From positions 1-51,407 of the forward strand of contig JAURGC010000002.1 in the NCBI GenBank assembly GCA_030833985.1: a stretch of DNA of 51,407 nt, in the 5' to 3' direction. Origin of the DNA: Algoriphagus sp. Lineage in GTDB: Bacteria > Bacteroidota > Bacteroidia > Cytophagales > Cyclobacteriaceae. Below the pieces are notes generated by a model that was not told where the DNA came from, did no database searches, and saw only the letters and a program-made list of their open reading frames with translations. The position numbers and the translations under genes were made by a program. Numbering within the stretch: position 1 is the stretch's first letter; every line of letters begins with the position of its first letter. Shown in pieces: positions 1 through 40,311 of this stretch.

Positions 1-784
1 CTATTTGTTCTTTATCAAATGCTTCTTTGATTTTCTCTAGAGTTTCGTAGTAAACTTCCCAATAGGAATCAGTACCCGTCCAAGCACGAACCACCAAATC
101 CAAGGAACTATCTCCAAAATTATTAAGCCATACTTCTGGCTCGGGTTCGGAATGAATGCGACTATCTTTTGCCAAAATTGAAAGGACAACCTTTCTTACT
201 TTTTTCAAATCCGAGGAATAAGCCACGCCCACGTTCATATCTACCCTTCTAGTTGGTTGTGAAGTGATGTTGATTACATCTGCATTGGCTAGGTTTCCAT
301 TCGGAATAACGACCTCCCTATTGTCAAAAGTAAGTAAGTGCGTATATAAAATATCAATTCGCTGCACCCTTCCTTTATGTCCCATCCCAATAATCACATC
401 CTCTACCTGGAAAGGCTTAAACAATAGAATCAAAACCCCGCCAGCAAAATTGGATAGGGATCCTTGCAATGCGAGACCTATTGCCAATCCTGCCGCTCCC
501 AAAATCGCAAAGAAAGACGACATGGGCACACCCACAATCGTAGCCACACCGATAAATAAGGAAACAAAAAGCAACGCTTTAACCAATCCTAGTAAGAAGG
601 TACTTAAAGAAAGGTTGGTGTCTCTTTTTTCTAAAATTAATTGAAAGGCAATTAGCAATTTATTGACTGCAAACCTGCCTACGAAATAAAAAATAATCGC
701 GTACAATAAGGAGGGTATTACCTGATAAAGAAGTTGAATTCCTTCATCCAAGAGGGTTTTTAAAGTTTCTGGAGATAATTCCAT
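1..784 (-). CDS. MscS-family small-conductance mechanosensitive channel, C-terminus cut off by window edge
   Basis: The frame is open from an ATG at 784 to the window start, giving 261 residues without a stop. Hydrophobic segments lie at about 20-42, 62-86 and 91-121. The last has the Gly/Ala-rich pore-helix pattern AAGLAIGLALQGSLSNFAGG of MscS, and the beta domain that follows carries VVIPNGNLANADVIN, close to the family's IPNG motif. MscS proteins open under membrane tension and release solutes during osmotic downshock; the site is the inner membrane. Only the end of the C-terminal alpha/beta domain should be missing. The gene starts 10 bp after the methyltransferase stop on the same strand, so it may be the last gene of the PKS-methyltransferase transcript. 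The family is certain; co-transcription is inference. Confidence 0.9.
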   Translation of the reverse strand, partial: MELSPETLKTLLDEGIQLLYQVIPSLLYAIIFYFVGRFAVNKLLIAFQLILEKRDTNLSLSTFLLGLVKALLFVSLFIGVATIVGVPMSSFFAILGAAGLAIGLALQGSLSNFAGGVLILLFKPFQVEDVIIGMGHKGRVQRIDILYTHLLTFDNREVVIPNGNLANADVINITSQPTRRVDMNVGVAYSSDLKKVRKVVLSILAKDSRIHSEPEPEVWLNNFGDSSLDLVVRAWTGTDSYWEVYYETLEKIKEAFDKEQI

Positions 785-794
785 AGGTATCGTG

Positions 795-1502
795 TTAAAT
801 GGTTACTTCTATTTGCCAGCGAAACGCCCAGCGCCACTGAATTTTAGTTTTGTGTAGGCCTGCTTGATGGAAAATCACCCTCCACTCCTTTCTAGTAAAA
901 CTCCGCAAAACAGAAAGTGGAGCATCATTTTGGACCATTGGTGATTTGCTAAACCAAGCGGTCAGCCATTTGATTGTATAATAGGCAAGGGGATGACGAT
1001 GAAGATCATTGATAACAAACCCTATCCTAGCCTTTTTTTTTAACACTAAAAAAAGTTGAATTAGTTCCTCGTCAGTAAAATGATGGGTAAACAAGGTGCA
1101 GGTGACGAGATCCACTTGCTCATCCAAAAACTTGGGATCAAACGCATTGACAACCTGCCAATCCACTTCTTCAACTTCTTGCTGCCGCCATTTTGCAAAT
1201 TCAATGGTATTCGCATTGGCATCAGCACCAATAAACTGGATGGACAATTTATGCTTTTTTGCCCAGGTGGCCATGACCGCAACCATGTCTCCCCCTCCAC
1301 AACCCAAATCTACCACCTGGTACCTCGCCTGAGGGGCTGCTGCTTGAATTAAGCTCTTCAACCCCCAATTGGTCACCTGATTACCTCCCAGCCAGCGATT
1401 GATAATTTTCAATTCCCGAAGGGTTTGCTCCAAGACAGGGCCTGAACAATCCAGGTCGTCCATAATTTCTTTTTCCTTGGAGCGTTTTGAAAATCTATTC
1501 AT
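795..1502 (-). CDS. Class I SAM-dependent methyltransferase of the type III PKS locus
   Basis: This 235-residue protein has the SAM-binding motif I VVDLGCGGGD at residues 63-72, an acidic residue ending strand 2 (IGADAN, about 91-96), and a Rossmann-type continuation (DLVTCTLFTHHF). This places it in the class I methyltransferases of the Methyltransf_11/25 type. The start overlaps the PKS stop by 4 bp (ATGA), which implies translational coupling. The likely role is O- or C-methylation of the polyketide product, by analogy with the methyltransferases beside alkylresorcinol synthases in Streptomyces (SrsB). That analogy is one of context and not of shared protein family. The substrate cannot be read from the sequence. 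Confidence 0.85.
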   Translation of the reverse strand: MNRFSKRSKEKEIMDDLDCSGPVLEQTLRELKIINRWLGGNQVTNWGLKSLIQAAAPQARYQVVDLGCGGGDMVAVMATWAKKHKLSIQFIGADANANTIEFAKWRQQEVEEVDWQVVNAFDPKFLDEQVDLVTCTLFTHHFTDEELIQLFLVLKKKARIGFVINDLHRHPLAYYTIKWLTAWFSKSPMVQNDAPLSVLRSFTRKEWRVIFHQAGLHKTKIQWRWAFRWQIEVTI

Positions 1503-2578
1503 CGTTTTTCAAATAAACTCGATTCTAGCGTTAAACCAGGACCAAAACCTAGTGCTAAAATTTCTCCTTGAATGCAATCATCTTGCAGCATTCTCTCCAA
1601 AACAAATAAAATACTGGCTGAAGACATGTTGCCGCAGGTACGCAGTACCTCGAAGGCATGTCGATTTACATCTGGAGCTAGTCCAAAGGCCTCCTGAACT
1701 TGAATCAAAATTTGTTTGCCTCCAGGATGAATCGCTACATGCGGTACCTGGGAAAAATTAAACTTGGATTCAAAGAGATCGCGAAGTCCTCGGATACCTT
1801 GGTTGAGAAGGGAAGGTATATACTGACTGAGACGCATCTCAAATCCAAAATCACCGATTCTCCAAGCCATGTCTTTTTCCCCCTCCCAAAGCACTTCACT
1901 GAAGTATTTTTTAATCTGCAGGCCAGTATCGGATTGCATGACTAAGGCAGCGGCTGCCCCATCACCAAAAAGTGAGTTGGCCAATAAATTATCCTCGGTA
2001 TATTCCTTCTGAAAATGTAACGTACAGAGTTCCACAGAAACCACCAAAACACGGGCTTTTGGGTTGGCTTTGACCAATTGGTCTGCAAGTCGGAGCCCCG
2101 TAAAAGCTGCATAGCAACCCATAAAGTGAATACAGTAGCGTTCTATTGAACTAGCCATATCCAATCTACGGATCAGGCCTAATTCTACCCCAGGAGCCAC
2201 CATCCCTGTGCAAGACACCAAAATCAAATGGGTTAGGGAAGAAGGTGCCACCTGTGCCTTTTCTAGAGCCGTACGGACAGCCTGCTCAGCCAGTGCAGCT
2301 GCTTCTACCTCAAAGACATCCATTCGTGCGGCTGTGCCCGGAAAAGGATGCAACTCCTTATTTTTAGGGAAGAAGGTAAATTCAGACACCTCCTCTTTTT
2401 CAAAATCTTTCAGAACACTATGGCGTGATTCTATCCCAGACTTTCGGTACAAAAAATCAAGCTTTCGTTTCTCTTGTCCATCCAGTTGGTGAGCCAACTG
2501 CATGAAGCGCGAGATTTTCGCTTGGGGTATTGGCGCTCCAGGATTGGAAATGCCGATACTAACGATACTGGAATTCAT
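1499..2578 (-). CDS. Type III polyketide synthase (chalcone/stilbene synthase-like)
   Basis: The protein has 359 residues, normal for bacterial type III PKSs. It shows the complete Cys-His-Asn triad: Cys155 in FMGCYAAF, His284 in AIHPGGKQI and Asn317 in CGNMSSASI. The C-terminal ALGFGPGLTLE segment matches the GFGPG signature of chalcone synthases. Such enzymes extend an acyl starter, often a fatty acyl-CoA in bacteria, with malonyl-CoA and cyclise the chain to an alkylresorcinol or alkylpyrone; they act as cytosolic homodimers. The gene is first on its strand, coupled to the methyltransferase by a 4-bp overlap, and divergent from the UbiA gene across an 89-bp gap. The enzyme class is certain; starter unit, chain length and product are not known. 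Confidence 0.95.
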   Translation of the reverse strand: MNSSIVSIGISNPGAPIPQAKISRFMQLAHQLDGQEKRKLDFLYRKSGIESRHSVLKDFEKEEVSEFTFFPKNKELHPFPGTAARMDVFEVEAAALAEQAVRTALEKAQVAPSSLTHLILVSCTGMVAPGVELGLIRRLDMASSIERYCIHFMGCYAAFTGLRLADQLVKANPKARVLVVSVELCTLHFQKEYTEDNLLANSLFGDGAAAALVMQSDTGLQIKKYFSEVLWEGEKDMAWRIGDFGFEMRLSQYIPSLLNQGIRGLRDLFESKFNFSQVPHVAIHPGGKQILIQVQEAFGLAPDVNRHAFEVLRTCGNMSSASILFVLERMLQDDCIQGEILALGFGPGLTLESSLFEKR

Positions 2579-2667
2579 GGACCTAAGTTACCAAAATAGT
2601 TCTAATTTAGTTTGCACATGGCCCCTTTTCAAAATAGCTGTATCTTGAACCCCATGATAAATAGCAA

Positions 2668-3561
2668 ATGATCACACGCTCCACCCTCCTACACCTCCGC
2701 ATCCCATTTTCATTTTTCTTGATGCCGGTTTTTTTATTTGCATTGGCCTTAACACCCAATCATAACGAGCTACGAATGCTCCTTGTTTTTTTGAGTCTGC
2801 ATGTGTTTCTCTATCCCAGTAGCAACGGGTACAACAGTTACTATGACAAGGATGAAGAGTCCATAGGTGGGCTAAAACGTCCACCCAAGGTGACTAGCGA
2901 CCTGTATAGCTGGTCACTCATTTTTTTTGGTGTTGCATTGGCCTTGGGAGTTTGCATCAACTGGGAGTTGGCAGGTATGCTTGGCTTGTATGGGGTAGTC
3001 AGCATGGCCTATAGTCATCCTACCATCCGCCTTAAAAAACATGCTTGGACTAGCTGGATGATTGCAGGACTCTTCCAAGGGTACTTTACGTTCGCAATGG
3101 CCTATGCAGGCCTAAGTAATTTAGGTTGGGAGGTGCTCTACAAGCCGCATGTTCTCCTTCCAGGATTACTAACCAGCCTCATGCTCTGGGGCAATTACCC
3201 GCTTACACAGGTATATCAGCATGGAGAAGATGCCCGCAGAGGCGATCGTACGCTGAGTCTACTTCTTGGAATTAAGGGTACTTTTGCTTTTTCTGCACTA
3301 TTTTTTATGTTGACGGCTTCTGCTTTTGTCTGGTATTTTGTGGATAAAGGGCAAACTCCAATTGCTGGATACTACTTAATCGCAGCGACACCTATTGCGT
3401 TATTTTTCCTGATTTGGATGGGTCTGATCCTTCGAGAGCCTAAAAAATACGCGATTTATAGCTGGGCGATGGGGATGAATTTCATTTCTGCATTCTCCCT
3501 GAATGCCTTTTTTATTTACTATTTTCTCGAAAACACTCAGATTTTGCAAGTATTTAATTGA
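2668..3561 (+). CDS. UbiA-family membrane prenyltransferase
   Basis: This 297-residue protein has about eight or nine hydrophobic segments. The first polar loop carries NGYNSYYDKDEE (53-64), a variant of the NDxxDxxxD diphosphate/Mg-binding motif. A second loop has EDARRGDRTL (187-196), matching the second Asp-rich motif of UbiA/MenA enzymes. UbiA proteins move a prenyl group onto an aromatic acceptor in the membrane. The neighbours suggest that the acceptor is the aromatic polyketide of the adjacent type III PKS, rather than a menaquinone precursor. The gene is divergent from the PKS and converges with the FAD oxidoreductase, leaving only 2 bp between the stops. A 5-codon reading frame at 2654 overlaps the start (AATGA). 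Family assignment is firm; the substrate is inference. Confidence 0.88.
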   Translation: MITRSTLLHLRIPFSFFLMPVFLFALALTPNHNELRMLLVFLSLHVFLYPSSNGYNSYYDKDEESIGGLKRPPKVTSDLYSWSLIFFGVALALGVCINWELAGMLGLYGVVSMAYSHPTIRLKKHAWTSWMIAGLFQGYFTFAMAYAGLSNLGWEVLYKPHVLLPGLLTSLMLWGNYPLTQVYQHGEDARRGDRTLSLLLGIKGTFAFSALFFMLTASAFVWYFVDKGQTPIAGYYLIAATPIALFFLIWMGLILREPKKYAIYSWAMGMNFISAFSLNAFFIYYFLENTQILQVFN

Positions 3562-3563
3562 GA

Positions 3564-4682
3564 TTAGAACGGTTGACCGTGGGTGTTTTTGACTAGAGTA
3601 CGGGCCACAAATGGAACATGCTGAATGAGGTTTCTTGCCAATACAGAACCCCTGCCTGAACCGAAAAGTCCCTGTATGGCTTTGCCTACACCTAAACGAT
3701 GGTAAAACTGGGCATTCCAGGATTGAAAGTATCGCTCTTCCACCTCTTTTCGGGTATTCCCTTCTTCCAAGGCCTCCGTCACCAATAAGGCCGAATGCAT
3801 GGCCATCGCCATCCCATTGCCACAAAGGGGAGTAATTAATCCAGCTGAATCCCCTAGCAGTAGTAAGTGATTTTCTACCGGCTTTTTGCGCTCAAAATTG
3901 ATCTCCGTAATAACTTCCGGCTTTTCCCATAGAAAGGTACTTCCTTCAAATATTCGTTTTAATAAGGGATTTTTCCAAAGTATGGCCCGTTCCATTTCTT
4001 GAATCGAGCCGTACTGCCTAAGCTGATCCCGATTGCCCAAGTAACAAAGGTTAAACTTCCCGTCTTCAATGGCATTGAACCCGCAATAGCCACCCTGAAA
4101 ATTATGTAAGGCCACTGTATGGGTTGATCCTTCTGCCTGAACATGGTATTTGACCCCGATATATGGGCTTCGTTTCGTAAAAAAGGGGCGCTCCAATACC
4201 TGATCCAACTTGCTTCGTTTACCAAATGCACCTAAGACTATAGGCACACTCAAGGATTGAAAATCTGAAAGATCAACTTGAAAGTGATCCTCTTCCTCCA
4301 AATACTCGAGATTGGTTACTGTAGTACCCGTCAGGAAGTTTACTCCCTCCTTGCCTGCTTTTTGGTACAGCCAATTGTCTAAAGCATACCTACTGATTCC
4401 AAAACCACCCAAGTCTAAGGGGAGGAGAACCGCCTTTCCTTTTGTATCCGAAAACTCAAACGTATCGATAGAGGGAAGTTCTAAAAAATCTGGATAGAGC
4501 CCATTTCGCTTCAAAAATCCAAGGACTTCGTTGGAAACATACTCCCCGCAGACACGATGAAAAGGATAGCTCTTTTTTTCCACCACAGTAACAGTGTAGC
4601 CCTTTTTGACCAATAATAAGGAAGCCACAAGACCAGAAAGCCCCCCACCAACAATCAGTACCTCACCATACTTCTTTTTCAA
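3564..4682 (-). CDS. FAD-dependent oxidoreductase (geranylgeranyl reductase/aromatic hydroxylase type), TTG start
   Basis: The 372-residue protein begins with a Rossmann FAD-binding motif, VGGGLSG (11-17), followed by an acidic residue after strand 2 (VVEKK) and a conserved-looking FHRVCGEYVS segment. The second FAD motif is LLLGDSAGLITPLCGNG (274-290). This pattern is shared by geranylgeranyl reductases, flavin hydroxylases and flavin halogenases. In this locus it could hydroxylate or oxidise the resorcinol to a quinone, or reduce a prenyl chain. No ATG exists in frame near the N-terminus: upstream codons run to TGC-ATA-GTA-AAA-TCA-AAG-GCG, so TTG at 4680-4682 is the best start. The family is clear; the exact reaction is open. 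Confidence 0.88.
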   Translation of the reverse strand: MKKKYGEVLIVGGGLSGLVASLLLVKKGYTVTVVEKKSYPFHRVCGEYVSNEVLGFLKRNGLYPDFLELPSIDTFEFSDTKGKAVLLPLDLGGFGISRYALDNWLYQKAGKEGVNFLTGTTVTNLEYLEEEDHFQVDLSDFQSLSVPIVLGAFGKRSKLDQVLERPFFTKRSPYIGVKYHVQAEGSTHTVALHNFQGGYCGFNAIEDGKFNLCYLGNRDQLRQYGSIQEMERAILWKNPLLKRIFEGSTFLWEKPEVITEINFERKKPVENHLLLLGDSAGLITPLCGNGMAMAMHSALLVTEALEEGNTRKEVEERYFQSWNAQFYHRLGVGKAIQGLFGSGRGSVLARNLIQHVPFVARTLVKNTHGQPF

Positions 4683-4788: not shown

Positions 4789-7326
4789 ATGAACACATCC
4801 ATTCCCATCGCATTAAGGAGAACTGCATTGGTGGTAGGCCTCCTGGGTGCAATGCTTCAGGCTGAGGATTCTTTTGCACAAAGGAAAAAGAAAAAAGGTA
4901 AGGAAGCCCCTACTACTACTGCTCCTGCAGTACGACCAGCACCAGCAGGACCTGCCAATGGTCCCAAACCTTACAAGGAAGTTATCACAGCCAAAGCAAA
5001 AACTATGGCTGGACTTTTTAAGGTACATCAAATCGACGAAAAATACTTTTACGAAATCCCAGATTCCTTGCTTGGAAGGGACATGCTGCTAGTGGTGCGT
5101 ATCGCAAAAACTGCTGATGGCATCGGCTATGGCGGAGAAAACACCAGTAACATGATGGTGCGTTGGGAAAAGAACAAAGACGACATCTTACTAAAGGTCG
5201 TTTCTTTAAACAATTATGCCGCAGATTCCTTACCGATTGCCAAAGCGGTGGCAGCATCCAATTTGGAACCTATCCTCCAGCGATTCCCAATTAAAGCAAG
5301 GCAAACGGATTCAACAGGTACAGTAATTGAAGCGACAGACTTGTTTTCAAAAGACAATCAAGCTTTGGGATTACAGCGCAACAGAAGAACCCAGTACCGG
5401 GTAACACGATTGGATAACGAGCGTTCTTACATTCAGCATATCCATAGCTATCCCATCAACGTGGAGGCACGCTATGTACTCACTTATGCTGCTGGCGAAC
5501 CTCCATCCAATAGTGTAACTGGCTTGATTACGCTAGAAATGAATGCTTCAATGATCCTTCTGCCCAAAGTGCCGATGCAACAACGTCTTGCTGATCAGCG
5601 TGTAGGCTGGTTTGCCAGATCCTATGTGGACTACGGAGCAGATGAACAAAGAGCTTCTTCAAGACGATTTTTGGATCGTTGGAGATTGGAAGTTAAGCCA
5701 GAAGATCGCGAGAAATTTGCTCGTGGAGAATTGGTTGAGCCGGTTAAACCAATTGTGTATTACATTGACCCTGCCACCCCTGCCAAGTGGGTACCTTATT
5801 TGAAGCAAGGGGTGGAAGATTGGCAAAAAGCCTTTGAAGCTGCTGGCTTTAAAAATGCGATATTGGCCAAAGAAGCTCCTACCCCAGCAGAGGATCCGAC
5901 CTGGAGCCCTGAGGATGCACGGTACTCGGTGATCCGCTATTTTGCCTCTAATATTCAAAATGCATATGGCCCACACGTATCTGATCCTCGTTCTGGAGAA
6001 ATCTTGGAGTCCGACATCGGATGGTACCACAACGTGATGAACTTACTTCGCAACTGGTTCTTCATCCAGACTGCTGCGATCAACCCAGATGCAAGATCCG
6101 TCAAGTTTGACGACGAGGTAATGGGCCGCTTGATCCGATTTGTCTCTGCTCATGAGGTAGGACATACACTTGGCTTACCGCACAACTTTGCTTCTTCGGT
6201 AGCTTACCCAGTAGAAAAATTGCGAGATGCGGCCTTTACCAAGGAATTTGGTACGGCGCCATCCATCATGGACTATGCCCGATTCAACTATGTAGCTCAA
6301 CCAGAAGATCAAGGAGTAAGTTTGATGCCAGATGTAGGCCCTTACGACAAATACGCGATCATGTGGGGATACAAGCCTATTTTGGAAGCCAACAGCCCAG
6401 AAGAAGAACTTACCACCTTAAACCAATGGATTCTGGACAAGAAAGGGGATCCTGTGTATCGATACGGACGTCAAGGCAATAGCTACGACCCCACTACCCA
6501 GTCTGAAGATTTGGGAGACAACTCCGTGACCGCTTCTGAATATGGAATCAAAAACTTGAAGCGCATCCTACCTAACCTACGCGAATGGACAACAGAAAAG
6601 GATAAGCCAGCAAAAAATTACGATGACCTAGAAGAAATGTACGGACAAGTAATTGGCCAATTTAATCGCTACATGGGCCATGTACGTACCCATGTGGGTG
6701 GCGTAATGGAAATCTACCGATCTTCAGGGCAGGGGGAAGCCGTGTACACGCACCAAAGCAAAGAAATGCAGAAGGCCGCTGTGGATTTTGTCAACAGGCA
6801 ATTATTCAGCACCCCAAGCTGGTTGATGGACGAGTCCATCATTGCCAGAATCGAAGACTTCGGTGCATTAGAGCGTATTCGTGGCATCCAAGTAAGTACC
6901 CTAAATGGCATCTTGGAGTGGGGTAGATTAGGTAGGGTAATTGAAAACGAAGCATTGAATGGATCAAAAGCCTACAAAATCACCGAGCTATTTGATGATT
7001 TGAGAAAAGGAATTTGGACCGAACTTGCTGCAGGAAAAACTATTGACGTACACCGCAGAGCATTGCAACGCGCACACATCGAGCGATTGGAATTGCTCTT
7101 GACAGGAAGCGTGGCTCCCTTGCCAGCTCAATTTAGAGCTTTTATGGGCCCACAGATCAATGCCGCCCAATCTGATATTCGTCCCATGGCTAGAGCGGAA
7201 TTGAAAACGCTGCAAAGCCAGATTAGGGCTGCCATCGGAAGAACTTCTGACCGTATGAGTAAACTTCATCTCGAGGATGTAGGAGAACGAATCAACAAAA
7301 TCTTGAAGGAAACTTCAGGAGAGTAA
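4789..7326 (+). CDS. Secreted zinc-dependent metalloprotease, DUF5117/DUF4953 type
   Basis: This 845-residue protein has an N-terminal signal peptide (basic start, hydrophobic stretch, cleavage near SFAQ at about 28-31) and then a Lys-rich and Thr/Pro/Ala-rich linker to about residue 60. The catalytic motif HEVGHTLGLPHN (455-466) is an extended HExxHxxGxxH zinc site, so H455, H459 and H465 are the ligands and E456 the base. The MDYARFNY sequence at 494 sits where a metzincin Met-turn would be. Proteins of this build are common in Bacteroidota and are predicted periplasmic or exported peptidases of unknown substrate. The gene is monocistronic, with a strong terminator right after the stop. Confidence 0.88.
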   Translation: MNTSIPIALRRTALVVGLLGAMLQAEDSFAQRKKKKGKEAPTTTAPAVRPAPAGPANGPKPYKEVITAKAKTMAGLFKVHQIDEKYFYEIPDSLLGRDMLLVVRIAKTADGIGYGGENTSNMMVRWEKNKDDILLKVVSLNNYAADSLPIAKAVAASNLEPILQRFPIKARQTDSTGTVIEATDLFSKDNQALGLQRNRRTQYRVTRLDNERSYIQHIHSYPINVEARYVLTYAAGEPPSNSVTGLITLEMNASMILLPKVPMQQRLADQRVGWFARSYVDYGADEQRASSRRFLDRWRLEVKPEDREKFARGELVEPVKPIVYYIDPATPAKWVPYLKQGVEDWQKAFEAAGFKNAILAKEAPTPAEDPTWSPEDARYSVIRYFASNIQNAYGPHVSDPRSGEILESDIGWYHNVMNLLRNWFFIQTAAINPDARSVKFDDEVMGRLIRFVSAHEVGHTLGLPHNFASSVAYPVEKLRDAAFTKEFGTAPSIMDYARFNYVAQPEDQGVSLMPDVGPYDKYAIMWGYKPILEANSPEEELTTLNQWILDKKGDPVYRYGRQGNSYDPTTQSEDLGDNSVTASEYGIKNLKRILPNLREWTTEKDKPAKNYDDLEEMYGQVIGQFNRYMGHVRTHVGGVMEIYRSSGQGEAVYTHQSKEMQKAAVDFVNRQLFSTPSWLMDESIIARIEDFGALERIRGIQVSTLNGILEWGRLGRVIENEALNGSKAYKITELFDDLRKGIWTELAAGKTIDVHRRALQRAHIERLELLLTGSVAPLPAQFRAFMGPQINAAQSDIRPMARAELKTLQSQIRAAIGRTSDRMSKLHLEDVGERINKILKETSGE

Positions 7327-7334
7327 GAAAAAAA

Positions 7335-7359
7335 GGGCGCCAATTGGCGCCCTTTTTTT
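7335..7359 (+). terminator. Rho-independent terminator of the metalloprotease gene
   Basis: A perfect 18-nt palindrome, GGGCGCCAATTGGCGCCC, at 7335-7352 starts 9 bases after the stop codon and is followed by seven T. A run of A precedes it, so it could act in both directions, but the only gene that ends here is on the plus strand. Confidence 0.92.
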
Positions 7360-7402
7360 CTCTACTTGATTTTTTGTTACTTTGGATACCAATCCCAATT
7401 TC

Positions 7403-7816
7403 ATGTCCTCACCACTTCAAATCTTAAAGCACCACCGATTACGCATTACAGATTGTAGACTGGTAATCATTGAGGAGTTTTTGGATAAAAGTATTGCCCT
7501 TTCTCACTCGGATTTGGAAGAAGCTCTAAATAAAAAATTTGATCGAGTTACCATCTACCGCACGCTAAAAACATTTTTAGAGAAGGATTTAATACACAAA
7601 GTATTGGATGATAGTGGGGCCACAAAGTATGCCTTTTGCAGTCATGGGGAAGAGAAGCATGCACACAACCACGAGCATGTGCACTTCAAATGTGAAAAAT
7701 GCGAGGAGACGACATGCCTCGAAGCTATTTCCTTACCTACAATTCCACTGCCAAAGGGTTTTGAAAAAAAAGAAATGAACCTACTCGTTCAAGGGATCTG
7801 CGAAAAATGTCATTAA
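7403..7816 (+). CDS. Fur/PerR-family metal-dependent transcriptional regulator
   Basis: The 137-residue protein has the Fur layout: an N-terminal winged helix (RITDCRLVIIEEF, then the recognition helix region FDRVTIYRTLKTF), a His-rich hinge (HAHNHEHVHF) and a zinc site made of CEKCEETTC plus the C-terminal CEKC. An upstream TTG at 7382 extends the frame by seven residues, but ATG at 7403 gives the usual N-terminus. The family represses iron, zinc or peroxide genes when metal is bound; which metal applies here cannot be told. It stands alone after a terminator and converges with a small membrane-protein gene. It differs clearly from the second Fur-family gene at 48.6 kb. Confidence 0.9.
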   Translation: MSSPLQILKHHRLRITDCRLVIIEEFLDKSIALSHSDLEEALNKKFDRVTIYRTLKTFLEKDLIHKVLDDSGATKYAFCSHGEEKHAHNHEHVHFKCEKCEETTCLEAISLPTIPLPKGFEKKEMNLLVQGICEKCH

Positions 7817-10729: not shown

Positions 10730-12421
10730 TTATCGAAACAGGTAGGTTAGTCCCAGCTGCCCAACAAAATTGGTTCGATCATATCCGGGTATAAACCATT
10801 TTTCAGGTTTATTTTCCAAGTACCACTTGTAATTCAACGTATTCACGTATTGAAATTTACCTGAAACTAGTAAGTCGCCAAACCTCCATTCTGGCGCAAG
10901 TGAAAAGACCAAATCGACGTATTTATTTCTAAAATCCTTCACTTCTTCGTAGCGGAAATAATAAAAATCATTGTTGTATTCGATTCGCTCTAATTCAATC
11001 CCTATTTTTTTCATTCCTTCTACCCATGCAATTCCTGCAAAGATTTGATTACTTGCCGGACCGTTACCCAGACCCAAGGGTTGCCCTCGATGCGTGTAAC
11101 CATGCCTCACATGATCGTGAATGTACCAGGTGCGGAGTTGTCGGATATTTTCTCGGATTGTTTGTCCAGAAAAGGTCATCTCAGAACTTAACTCCAAAAA
11201 GCGATTTTCTTTTTTCAAGTCCATCAAGTGCGAAAATCCGAAAGTAAATGCTCTTCCTGATTCCGGAGTTGTAATAAAATCAATGAATGGACGATCATTA
11301 TCCCGCGTCCCAAATTCCCCATAAAATTCAAAGTGCCCTTTGGGGTCTATCCATCGGAAAAAGCCTGCACTAAACTGCTGCCGTTTGGATTGGATAGTAT
11401 CCAGCACTTGCTGGTTTTTCTTTCTCCCGTTAAATATTGGAAGCACATCCTCTAAATCGGCAATTTCCGAACGGTACACATTATTGACGGATGCATATCC
11501 AAAAAACAAACCAGGAACCCACTTGGGTTGGTAGGTAACGATCATCCCTGAAAGTTGACGATCACCGTCTTCTTTTTTTGGATAATATACATCCATCTGC
11601 TGAAAGTTGTAATCAGAATGTGGAGGTAGAAAATTAGACGCCTTCAACCTTCCAGTCAAAACTTGCCCTTCAAATGAACCAATGGCAGATTGAATGGGTC
11701 GACGCGTATTCATCGTGTAATGCAAAAAACCAGGGGCAGAATTTCCCATCAAAAGGGAGTTTCGTCTACCAGGTCCCCACCAAAGGTTCTCGGTAGATAC
11801 CCCCAAGGAAATAGCGTCCAAGTTTAAGCGAAAGCTGGATTGTCCTGGAACTAACTGTTGAAAGGCGCTCTCACCAAAACGCTCGGGTAAATCGATCCGA
11901 TTTAAGTACTCGTAATAAAATAGGATGGTGGATTGCTGTTCAATCGGAAAACCTATGAACTCCTTGTTTTGGGCTTTAACCAGTTCGGGTTGCAACTGCA
12001 AACTGAATTTCCACCATTCGACAAAAGCTCCCAAGCTAATTACCTGCTGCAATCCCCGATTAGGAATCATGGCGCCATCGTTCGTGGCAAATGGATAGGT
12101 AGAGGTGTATTGACTTTTGTACAAAGCAGGGAGAAATAAAAATTTACCTTGCTTACCAAGACGTTGGTGGTAACTTGAAGAATCCAGATCTACCAAGTTT
12201 CCCTCCAAATCAAACCCATGTGCTAATCCAAATGCGGCTGTAGGTAGCAATGGGCGAATCATAAAAGAGGAGGCAGAATCCACTTTTCCGGTCAACTGCA
12301 ATCTACGAAGGTAGTCTTCCAATGAAGGCGCTCCCACTGCAATACTTTGAGCTCTGGTTCCCTGACCGCATGCAAGCATCCCCAACATTCCAATCGCAGC
12401 CGCAAGTATTCTTATTTTCAT
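10730..12421 (-). CDS. Wzi-family capsule assembly outer-membrane protein
   Basis: From ATG 12421 the protein has 563 residues with a signal peptide ending near TRAQ. The region STENLWWGPGRRNSLLMGN and APGFLHYTMNTRRP match the conserved core of Wzi/capsule assembly proteins, and the remainder has the alternating, aromatic-rich pattern of an outer-membrane beta barrel ending in YLFR. In Escherichia coli, Wzi attaches capsule to the cell surface; Bacteroidota homologues are predicted polysaccharide-associated barrels. The start overlaps the upstream lipoprotein stop by 4 bp (ATGA), so translation is coupled. A TTG further upstream would add 16 residues without a signal-peptide character. Confidence 0.85.
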   Translation of the reverse strand: MKIRILAAAIGMLGMLACGQGTRAQSIAVGAPSLEDYLRRLQLTGKVDSASSFMIRPLLPTAAFGLAHGFDLEGNLVDLDSSSYHQRLGKQGKFLFLPALYKSQYTSTYPFATNDGAMIPNRGLQQVISLGAFVEWWKFSLQLQPELVKAQNKEFIGFPIEQQSTILFYYEYLNRIDLPERFGESAFQQLVPGQSSFRLNLDAISLGVSTENLWWGPGRRNSLLMGNSAPGFLHYTMNTRRPIQSAIGSFEGQVLTGRLKASNFLPPHSDYNFQQMDVYYPKKEDGDRQLSGMIVTYQPKWVPGLFFGYASVNNVYRSEIADLEDVLPIFNGRKKNQQVLDTIQSKRQQFSAGFFRWIDPKGHFEFYGEFGTRDNDRPFIDFITTPESGRAFTFGFSHLMDLKKENRFLELSSEMTFSGQTIRENIRQLRTWYIHDHVRHGYTHRGQPLGLGNGPASNQIFAGIAWVEGMKKIGIELERIEYNNDFYYFRYEEVKDFRNKYVDLVFSLAPEWRFGDLLVSGKFQYVNTLNYKWYLENKPEKWFIPGYDRTNFVGQLGLTYLFR

Positions 12422-38778: not shown

Positions 38779-40311
38779 CTAGGAATTTATTCCTTCCATC
38801 AAGTCTAAAATTTCATTTAAAAACTCACGAGAATTGGAAAGTCGAGGAATTTTATGCTGCCCTCCTAGCTTGCCTTTTTTTGCCAGCCAAGACTCAAATA
38901 GGCCCGATGGCGCTGCATGGAGGCGAAGTCGCTGGAGAGCCAAATTTTTATACCTTTTGGCATCGTAATCTGAGTTCAATTGGCGGAGGCGTGCATCCAA
39001 CTTCTCTGCAAAATCCTCCAAACTTTCTGGGGCAGAATTGAACTCTACCACCCATTCGTGGGCGCCTTTAGATTTTCCTCCTTCAAAATAGATAGGCGCA
39101 GCCGTAAAATTGACAATGGTAGCTCCTGTCAACTCACAAGCAGATGCAATCGCTGCCTCGGCATTCTCTACAATCACTTCCTCTCCAAAAGCATTGATGA
39201 AGTGTTTTGTTCTTCCTGAAATCCGAAATCTATACGGGAAAGCAGATGTGAATTTAATCGTATCTCCAATTTTGTACCGCCACAATCCCCCATTCGTAGA
39301 AATGACTAGTGCATAATTTTTTCCAACCTCAACCCCTTCTAAAGAAACCACCTTAGGATCCTTTTTATCCAAATCCTCCGTTGGGATAAACTCATAAAAA
39401 ATGCCATAATCCAACAACAGAAGCAGCTCGTCTGAATCTGGCAGGTCCTGCATCCCAAAAAATCCCTCGGAAGCATTGTAAGTCTCCATGTACCGCATCT
39501 TCTCCGAAGGAATCAGTTGCCTGAATAAATTTCGGTACGGTCCAAATGCCACGGCTCCATGGAAAAACACCTCCAAATTAGGCCAGACCTCTAAAATATG
39601 AGTGGCTTTTTTAAGTTCAAGGATTCGTTGCAGCAAGACCAGGGTCCAAGTGGGTACTCCTGCAATAGAAGTTACATTTTCATTCATGGTTTCACGGGCC
39701 ATACGCTCAATCTTGGCTTCCCAGTCAGACATCAGGGCCGTTTCCAAAGAAGGAGTACGTACAAATTGAGCCCAGATAGGAAGGTTGTGCATGATCAAGG
39801 CAGAGACATCACCAGCACGAGCATTCCCTTTGGAATGAAGTGGTTCTTTTTCAAGTGTTCCTCCAATGGACAAACTCTTTCCTGTAAAGATTTTGGTGTC
39901 AGGAAAATTATTGACATACAAGGAAACCATATCTTTCCCCCCCTTGTAGTGACATTCCTCCAAACTCTCTTCAGATACAGGAATGTATTTGCTCCGACCC
40001 GCCGTGGTTCCTGAGGATTTGGCAAACCATTGAATGGAAGAAGGCCAAAATACCTGTTGCTTTCCTTTGATAGTTTTTTCCAAGTAGGGACTAAATGACT
40101 CGTAATCAGAGAGAGGTACCCTGGAGGCAAACTCATCGTAGGAGCTGATGCGATTAAACAGATGGAGCTTCCCTATTTCGGTATTTTTCGCTGCTTCTAG
40201 CAATTCAAATAGCGTGGTTTGCTGTACCAAGTGGGGGTCTTGCTTAAACTTGTCAATTTGACCCAACCGACTTTTAAAAATCCAAGTCAGAAAACTATTG
40301 AGCACTTCCAT
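38779..40311 (-). CDS. GH3-family acyl-adenylating enzyme (GH3 auxin-responsive promoter family)
   Basis: The 510 residues match the GH3 fold of the ANL superfamily: the ATP-binding P-loop SSGTTAGRSKY (99-109), YMETYNASEGFFGMQD in the middle, NGGLWRYKIGDTIKFTS and FGEEVIVENAEAAIASA towards the C-terminus. Plant GH3 enzymes join amino acids to jasmonate or auxin; bacterial members are widespread in Bacteroidota without a settled function. The start codon directly abuts the lptB stop, with no gap, so it is co-transcribed with lptB and recJ. This suggests, but does not prove, a link to envelope lipids. Confidence 0.92.
   Translation of the reverse strand: MEVLNSFLTWIFKSRLGQIDKFKQDPHLVQQTTLFELLEAAKNTEIGKLHLFNRISSYDEFASRVPLSDYESFSPYLEKTIKGKQQVFWPSSIQWFAKSSGTTAGRSKYIPVSEESLEECHYKGGKDMVSLYVNNFPDTKIFTGKSLSIGGTLEKEPLHSKGNARAGDVSALIMHNLPIWAQFVRTPSLETALMSDWEAKIERMARETMNENVTSIAGVPTWTLVLLQRILELKKATHILEVWPNLEVFFHGAVAFGPYRNLFRQLIPSEKMRYMETYNASEGFFGMQDLPDSDELLLLLDYGIFYEFIPTEDLDKKDPKVVSLEGVEVGKNYALVISTNGGLWRYKIGDTIKFTSAFPYRFRISGRTKHFINAFGEEVIVENAEAAIASACELTGATIVNFTAAPIYFEGGKSKGAHEWVVEFNSAPESLEDFAEKLDARLRQLNSDYDAKRYKNLALQRLRLHAAPSGLFESWLAKKGKLGGQHKIPRLSNSREFLNEILDLMEGINS

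Follow-up and report, generated by a model that had tools for sequence, protein, structure and literature searches.

Positions 1 to 51,407 of contig JAURGC010000002.1, from an Algoriphagus sp. metagenome assembly (GCA_030833985.1; G000, 82% complete), are here called the window. Near its left end lie four genes that almost certainly belong to one biosynthetic pathway. They encode a type III polyketide synthase (PKS), a class I S-adenosylmethionine (SAM) methyltransferase (MT), a UbiA-superfamily membrane protein and a flavin adenine dinucleotide (FAD)-dependent oxidoreductase. A preliminary description, made from the window's letters alone, had assigned the four genes to one pathway, and this is borne out by their joint inheritance and joint loss across genomes. 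The best explanation overall, in which we place more than tentative but less than high confidence, is a single pathway for a decorated phenolic membrane lipid, with an order of steps that we infer.

The distribution of the four families was determined in a class-level sample of 158 Bacteroidia genomes and in an order- and genus-level set. A PKS was called at E<=1e-20 against the window PKS, and the partners were counted at E<=1e-20 (UbiA subfamily), E<=1e-30 (MT) and E<=1e-50 (FAD); in the order- and genus-level set, "no PKS" means only FabH-like matches of <=28 bits, or none. First-look candidates scored per genome in the class sample were the best 12 for FAD, at most 15 for UbiA and at most 18 for MT. 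All UbiA and MT candidates of the order- and genus-level set were scored, as were all its FAD candidates but 8 of one genome. Three signature positions, Cys185, His188 and Trp239, defined the PKS classes (class A, Cys/His/Trp; class B, Pro/Thr/Phe; one other, Cys/Thr/Trp), except for the PKSs of G033 and G164, which were placed in class A by their 64-66% identity to the window PKS. A PKS was found in 39 of the 158 genomes (30 class A, 8 class B and 1 other). The UbiA subfamily was present in all 30 class-A genomes, at 357-429 bits in 29 of them and at 286 bits in G142, where it is broken by two stops, and in 0/9 genomes with a PKS of another class. The MT family was detected in 30/30 class-A and 8/8 class-B genomes, the FAD family in 28/30 and 8/8, and both in 0/119 genomes without a PKS match. 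Twelve class-A genomes at the order level had UbiA in every case, eight times away from the PKS, together with FAD in 11 and MT in 9. For the class-A genomes of both sets combined, the counts were 42/42 for UbiA and 39/42 each for FAD and MT. UbiA is the strictest partner of the class-A PKS. G091 retains all four genes although each is on a separate contig. Some of the sequences in alignments A1-A3 come from loci of the same genomes, so that linked positives are expected, and the information lies in the absences and in those UbiA copies that are not linked to the PKS; nor do genomes that are related to each other count as independent. The preliminary description had named, as evidence against its proposal, a UbiA or FAD gene that groups with menaquinone- or archaeal-lipid-type enzymes and occurs independently of the PKS; a test of this did not refute the proposal. 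Separately, G083 carries a second, broken set of PKS, MT, FAD and UbiA pieces (L183:2869-5301, 11351-12182) beside an intact set, which may reflect decay or contamination (3% reported).

Joint loss was seen within the genus. Three same-genus genomes of 99-100% completeness (G014, G025, G029) have no PKS, and no MT or FAD match was found anywhere in them. In G025 and G029 (99% complete), the flanking genes (MscS on one side, met-zincin and Fur on the other) have become direct neighbours, none of the four genes being left between them, and no UbiA match was found elsewhere in either genome. In G014 (100% complete), PKS, MT and FAD are gone and a UbiA-derived open reading frame (ORF) of 285 amino acids (aa) remains, which shares 42% identity with its counterpart in the window. 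This remnant has lost Asn56, Asp60, Asp62, Gln181, Gln184 and Asp188 and has no Pfam match. In the class sample, weak UbiA matches (118-222 bits) occur in 4 of the 119 genomes without a PKS match (G066, G090, G112, G152), and these too have an altered loop 1 or are truncated. The UbiA active site was thus not maintained once the PKS was lost, which is our best evidence that UbiA acts on the polyketide product. These natural block losses provide ready-made comparison strains. The 14 genomes counted as PKS-less at the genus and order level include G014 with its weak UbiA match (174 bits), G053 with a lone MT and G010 with an FAD fragment. In G010, a 76%-complete assembly, the contig ends inside the FAD gene next to the met-zincin, so that the PKS locus is probably only unassembled.

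Gene order was compared in 80 loci kept from a genome-contig scan with the window PKS, which we take to come mostly from Cyclobacteriaceae; the DNA was too short for scoring UbiA in two loci, MT in one and FAD in three. All 78 loci with enough upstream DNA have UbiA and the PKS in divergent orientation, and the gap between them is 75-92 nucleotides (nt) in 58 of these. The MT directly follows the PKS in 73/79 loci by a 60-nt rule, which the remaining six fail through ORF calls with an overlap of 91-94 nt, and FAD was found in 68/77. Same-genus loci (L006-L035) have UbiA in 29 of 30 cases, the one exception having a sequence only 3,028 bases long. Outside the genus, UbiA adjoins the PKS in 23/27 class-A loci of the class sample; all four genes share one strand in 13 of these 27, and 11 of the 13 read UbiA-PKS-MT-FAD. 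This comparison across Bacteroidota, which the preliminary description had proposed, places the association above chance by both co-occurrence and synteny. Two Algoriphagus metagenome-assembled genomes (MAGs) of the scan have a PKS that shares 96-97% identity with that of the window. Three MAGs titled Spirosoma fluviale (L043, L045, L046) carry a PKS 84-85% identical to that of the window in an Algoriphagus-type neighbourhood, and their titles look wrong.

The four proteins were then considered as enzymes. The full Cys155/His284/Asn317 triad that had been noted in the window PKS is intact there and present in all 57 rows of the PKS alignment. The UbiA protein has the Pfam UbiA domain and, in a predicted model, the UbiA fold, with UbiA-superfamily chains as the best matches, well above unrelated rows. 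The FAD enzyme combines an FAD_binding_3 domain with the fold of the group A flavoprotein aromatic hydroxylases, and its predicted model is nearest to aromatic hydroxylases and halogenases. The MT matches Pfam Methyltransf_25 at 46 bits and NCBIfam NF004851 at 149 bits, under a cut-off of 243. In the pathway that we propose, the type III PKS would extend an acyl starter with malonyl units and close a resorcinol-type ring. The FAD enzyme would hydroxylate this ring to a hydroquinone that could be oxidised to a quinone, the MT would methylate a ring carbon or oxygen, and the membrane-embedded UbiA would also work on this product, its most likely step being the addition of an isoprenoid chain. 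An aromatic phenolic core is likely and prenylation by UbiA is fairly probable, while a quinone as the end product is suggested only tentatively. Since PKS, MT and FAD occur together without UbiA in class-B genomes and in plasmid loci (L184-L187), FAD and MT likely act on the polyketide part.

Several observations weigh against this reading. The pathway product is a prediction from sequence. No MT or FAD was detected in G049, which has a class-A PKS and UbiA, and no MT in G039 or G045. The lone MT of G053 (237 bits; L207:5884-6606) has no PKS, UbiA or FAD match beside it or in the genome, and FAD is missing from the fetched flank in 9/77 genome-contig loci, a count that covers the flank. Because loop 2 of UbiA has no Asp at 181 or 184 and loop 1 has none at the second Asp position of DxxxD, ordinary prenyl diphosphate chemistry is uncertain. 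A Trp at the position of PKS Trp239 is not sufficient for resorcinol formation: PKS11 has it, yet the PKS11 structures in the PDB are named alpha-pyrone synthase, in contrast to PMC5916927, which counts PKS11 among resorcinol formers. The PKS tunnel residues are ambiguous (His188 and Phe189 versus Asn and Ala in PKS18), so that starter length is not readable from them. Lastly, the fold matches of FAD to halogenases and to hydroxylases are close to tied.

The altered loops bear on what UbiA does. To place them, the protein was aligned with a relative's prenyltransferase and with solved chains of UbiA and chlorophyll synthase, the latter being marginal matches (E 0.0017 and 0.18); a single-sequence search of solved structures with UbiA gave no match at E<=1. 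The preliminary description had located both loops correctly; its account of them as Asp-rich has to be revised. Loop 1 is NSxxDxD, with a varying residue (Glu64 in the window) at the second Asp of DxxxD. Loop 2 is TQxYQHxxD, with Gln181 and Gln184 where other enzymes have Asp at one or the other, and with Asp188 kept. Instead of the canonical pair of DxxxD Mg-binding motifs, UbiA thus has D60xxxE64 and Q184xxxD188. Asn56, Ser57, Asp60 and Asp62 of loop 1 and Y177, P178, T180, Q181, Y183, Q184, D188 and G192 of loop 2 are invariant in 26/26 rows, and residue 64 varies. UbiA might then belong to the pathway and transfer no prenyl group from a diphosphate, using another donor or binding, orienting or cyclising the lipid. 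The invariant Gln pair in place of metal-binding Asp and the lack of a conserved second DxxxD Asp in loop 1 agree with such a role, as does the failure of all six NCBIfam models that match UbiA at E<=0.001 to reach their own cut-offs. We nevertheless consider this role unlikely, given that the predicted fold is best matched by UbiA-superfamily chains and that Asn56, Asp60, Asp62 and Asp188 are invariant. The loop residues are gone in the PKS-less G014, so that chemistry needing them would appear to be under selection. Prenylation by UbiA is retained here as the preferred role, and the subfamily, with its invariant Gln-for-Asp and its tie to one PKS in 42/42 genomes, offers a defined test of the UbiA enzyme range.

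The ring type depends on the PKS, whose best solved matches are Steely1, a chalcone synthase-like PKS and Pks18. Pks18 is a pyrone synthase according to the review PMC6274091, and the window PKS might likewise make an alkylpyrone that the other enzymes decorate. The naming of PKS11 would agree with this, as would the fact that neither starter nor cyclisation can be read from the tunnel residues. However, Trp239 occupies the ArsB Trp281 position and is kept in 44/44 Bacteroidia class-A rows. It pairs with Leu266 of PKS18, and with Trp230 of the PKS11 chain via L145 and alignment A4. As reported in PMC6274091, ArsB W281G lost alkylresorcinol synthesis and gained alkylpyrone synthesis, and PMC5916927 equates Trp230 of a Mycobacterium marinum PKS with the ArsB Trp position needed for resorcinols, listing PKS11 as sharing it. 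The conserved Trp239 therefore favours a resorcinol product; it is no proof, because of the name of the PKS11 structures. A flavin hydroxylase and a UbiA enzyme would also both suit a phenolic acceptor, and comparable Planctomycetota operons are reported to yield alkylresorcinols (PMC10896814). An alkylpyrone is on balance improbable, and a resorcinol-type ring remains our preferred reading. A second Bacteroidia type III PKS class (L143-L144, L146-L151; L148 lies outside alignment A4 and inside the PKS tree) has Phe at the Trp239 position, the order FAD-MT-PKS and no UbiA. At L144:5720-11040, a locus of this class with Phe is followed by FabA-like, ketosynthase, carrier-protein and phosphopantetheinyl-transferase genes, which suggests a dedicated acyl-carrier starter supply.

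Among NCBIfam models, the FAD enzyme matches that of the GG-red superfamily (TIGR02032) best, at 91 bits, under its cut-off of 158.8. This match would fit a geranylgeranyl-reductase-like enzyme that saturates the prenyl chain added by UbiA, but such a role is very unlikely. The family accompanies a class-B PKS and an MT in 8/8 genomes without the UbiA subfamily, and the predicted fold is nearest to aromatic hydroxylases and halogenases. Moreover, in the two class-A genomes of the class sample without the FAD family (G071, G142), another FAD monooxygenase of the phenol-hydroxylase class (FAD_binding_3, 282 and 271 bits) takes its place, adjoining the MT or separated from it by a gene. The 50 matches listed in each of two fold comparisons include no chain with the name geranylgeranyl reductase, which excludes nothing. 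A halogenase, with which the near tie in fold would be compatible, is scarcely probable; three hydroxylase matches (TrlE, Z 32.1; 4-hydroxybenzoate 1-hydroxylase, 32.0; 3-hydroxybenzoate 6-hydroxylase, 31.9) follow the halogenases at a distance of no more than about 2 Z. A ring hydroxylase is thus the reading that we keep for this enzyme. G047 has a second FAD paralogue away from the PKS (L179:5245-6417).

It is hardly credible that UbiA is a housekeeping prenyltransferase (MenA or a geranylgeranylglyceryl phosphate transferase) merely beside the PKS: it has weak similarity to several UbiA models and the 82%-complete assembly of the window itself yielded no MenA besides it, but its best MenA-type match reaches 24.5 bits where the cut-off is 277 (NF004749), the relative G032 separately encodes MenA, a PRK12872-type prenyltransferase, EboC and CyoE, and the subfamily follows the PKS in 42/42 class-A genomes, unlinked copies included. 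A profile comparison of UbiA and MenA gave no usable alignment (probability 0.7%). Other UbiA proteins were sought in eight class-A genomes and in the window's own, and named in G032 and the window's own. An EboC gene lies in the window's own genome at L165:4674-5585 (402.8 bits; cut-off 250), as in G032 (L169); the two genes before it at L165 are presumably eboA and eboB.

In the window the locus is compact but is not one operon, because the gene strands differ. The PKS and MT genes overlap by 4 nt on the minus strand and are probably co-transcribed. UbiA and FAD are convergent, tail to tail, with a gap of 2 nt, and UbiA is divergent from the PKS. The tight 2-4 bp junctions of the preliminary description hold for these two pairs and not for the PKS/UbiA gap of 89 nt or for the mixed strands. 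A promoter and terminator scan gave counts no higher than shuffle means. The features are listed in the table.

Table. Coordinates of the four pathway genes, their key residues and the flanking genes in the window.
Feature	Position	Strand	Basis or remark
Class I SAM MT, PRK06202-like, 235 aa	795..1502	-	Pfam and NCBIfam matches; directly downstream of PKS
Type III PKS, class A, 359 aa	1499..2578	-	Pfam Chal_sti_synt_N, 101.5 bits
PKS-UbiA divergent intergenic region, 89 nt	2579..2667	none	
UbiA-superfamily membrane protein, PKS-linked subfamily, 297 aa	2668..3561	+	
FAD-dependent oxidoreductase, group A flavoprotein hydroxylase-like, 372 aa	3564..4682	-	TTG start
PKS catalytic Cys155 codon	2114..2116	-	Alignment
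PKS catalytic His284 codon	1727..1729	-	Alignment
PKS catalytic Asn317 codon	1628..1630	-	Alignment
PKS Trp239 codon	1862..1864	-	Aligned with PKS18 Leu266 and the PKS11 Trp230 / ArsB Trp281 position
UbiA loop 1, residues 56-64, NSYYDKDEE	2833..2859	+	Alignment
UbiA loop 2, residues 177-195	3196..3252	+	Alignment
MscS channel, cut at window edge	2..784	-	Syntenic flank outside pathway
DUF4953 met-zincin	4789..7326	+	Syntenic flank outside pathway

The met-zincin (DUF5118/DUF5117/DUF4953) is followed by a Fur-family gene (window 4789-7816), and this flank recurs in 66 of the 80 genome-contig loci. Further along, window 38779-40311 encodes a GH3-family protein with three Pfam GH3 domains. The GH3 family is best known for plant hormone conjugation.

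The gene content of the core, a PKS with its triad, a SAM MT and a flavin oxidoreductase, is that of the hid and pkq operons, so that the earlier likening of the core to alkylresorcinol and quinone operons holds at the level of gene families. Cyanobacteria and 58 strains of Planctomycetota are reported to have PKS-MT-oxidoreductase operons, and several of the PKSs were shown to make alkylresorcinols (PMC10896814). The picocyanobacterial hierridin operon hidABC and the related operons of Planctomycetota (PMC10896814, PMC8086630) share with the window the type III PKS, MT and oxidoreductase and, as predicted here, an alkylresorcinol core, a likeness drawn at the level of gene families. They form one operon, mostly in the order MT-oxidoreductase-PKS, with no mention of UbiA. 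That order is not found in the window, where PKS-MT lies on the minus strand with FAD beyond the divergent UbiA; the order PKS-MT-FAD occurs in other families. The polyketide quinone operons (pkqABC) of Mycobacterium and Streptomyces likewise combine PKS, MT and oxidoreductase, and yield an alkyl benzoquinone (PMC9927152). They are actinobacterial, are likened here by gene families, and come with no mention of UbiA in the main text of that source. UbiA, singled out in the preliminary description as the distinguishing gene, does set the locus apart: the known hid and pkq operons come without a mentioned UbiA, and it is present in 42/42 class-A genomes here.

Three homologous genes were also found on plasmids of Sphingobium, Paracoccus and Paenibacillus, where four PKS-MT-FAD loci (L184-L187) were examined among 31 matched plasmid records. 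Profile scores were 230-282 bits for PKS, 130-149 for MT and 98-145 for FAD, and the tree places the PKSs with class A (support 100/98), although their sequence composition is unusual. The four stretches contain no UbiA match, and a tblastn search of 72,556 plasmid records with the window UbiA gave no match at E<=1e-5. On the Sphingobium yanoikuyae plasmid pKN1 (L186:1989-6308), genes for a carrier protein, ketosynthase, type III PKS, MT and FAD-family protein stand in a row. Ubiquinone biosynthesis (UbiA, UbiE/UbiG, UbiH) proceeds from a ring by prenylation, methylation and flavin hydroxylation. The pathway proposed here would follow the same logic, but its ring would be a polyketide instead of 4-hydroxybenzoate, and its UbiA belongs to a divergent subfamily.

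No report of a type III PKS-UbiA locus in Bacteroidota was recognised in the open-licence literature, as far as its accessible text goes. The nearest case, reported in the cyanobacterium Raphidiopsis mediterranea, is a cluster resembling that of hierridin, which includes a prenyltransferase, its family not being stated, and has no described product (PMC8086630). The preliminary description knew of no described product for the combination; the combination itself is not wholly undescribed in view of this cluster, and the statement on the product stands. Because about 1 in 5 of the sampled Bacteroidia genomes (30/158) carries both PKS and UbiA, a major phylum may contain an entire class of membrane lipids or redox carriers that has gone unrecorded. 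A bolder and rather doubtful extension is that a polyketide-headed isoprenoid quinone pathway is widespread in Bacteroidia as a second, non-menaquinone redox lipid, in which an aromatic head from the PKS would replace that drawn from chorismate in ubiquinone synthesis, a dedicated UbiA subfamily with Gln substitutions in its second metal loop would add the isoprenoid tail, and MT and FAD would finish the molecule. Together, these comparisons indicate that the PKS-MT-FAD core is of an already known kind, and that what is new is its obligate, widespread and motif-altered UbiA partner.

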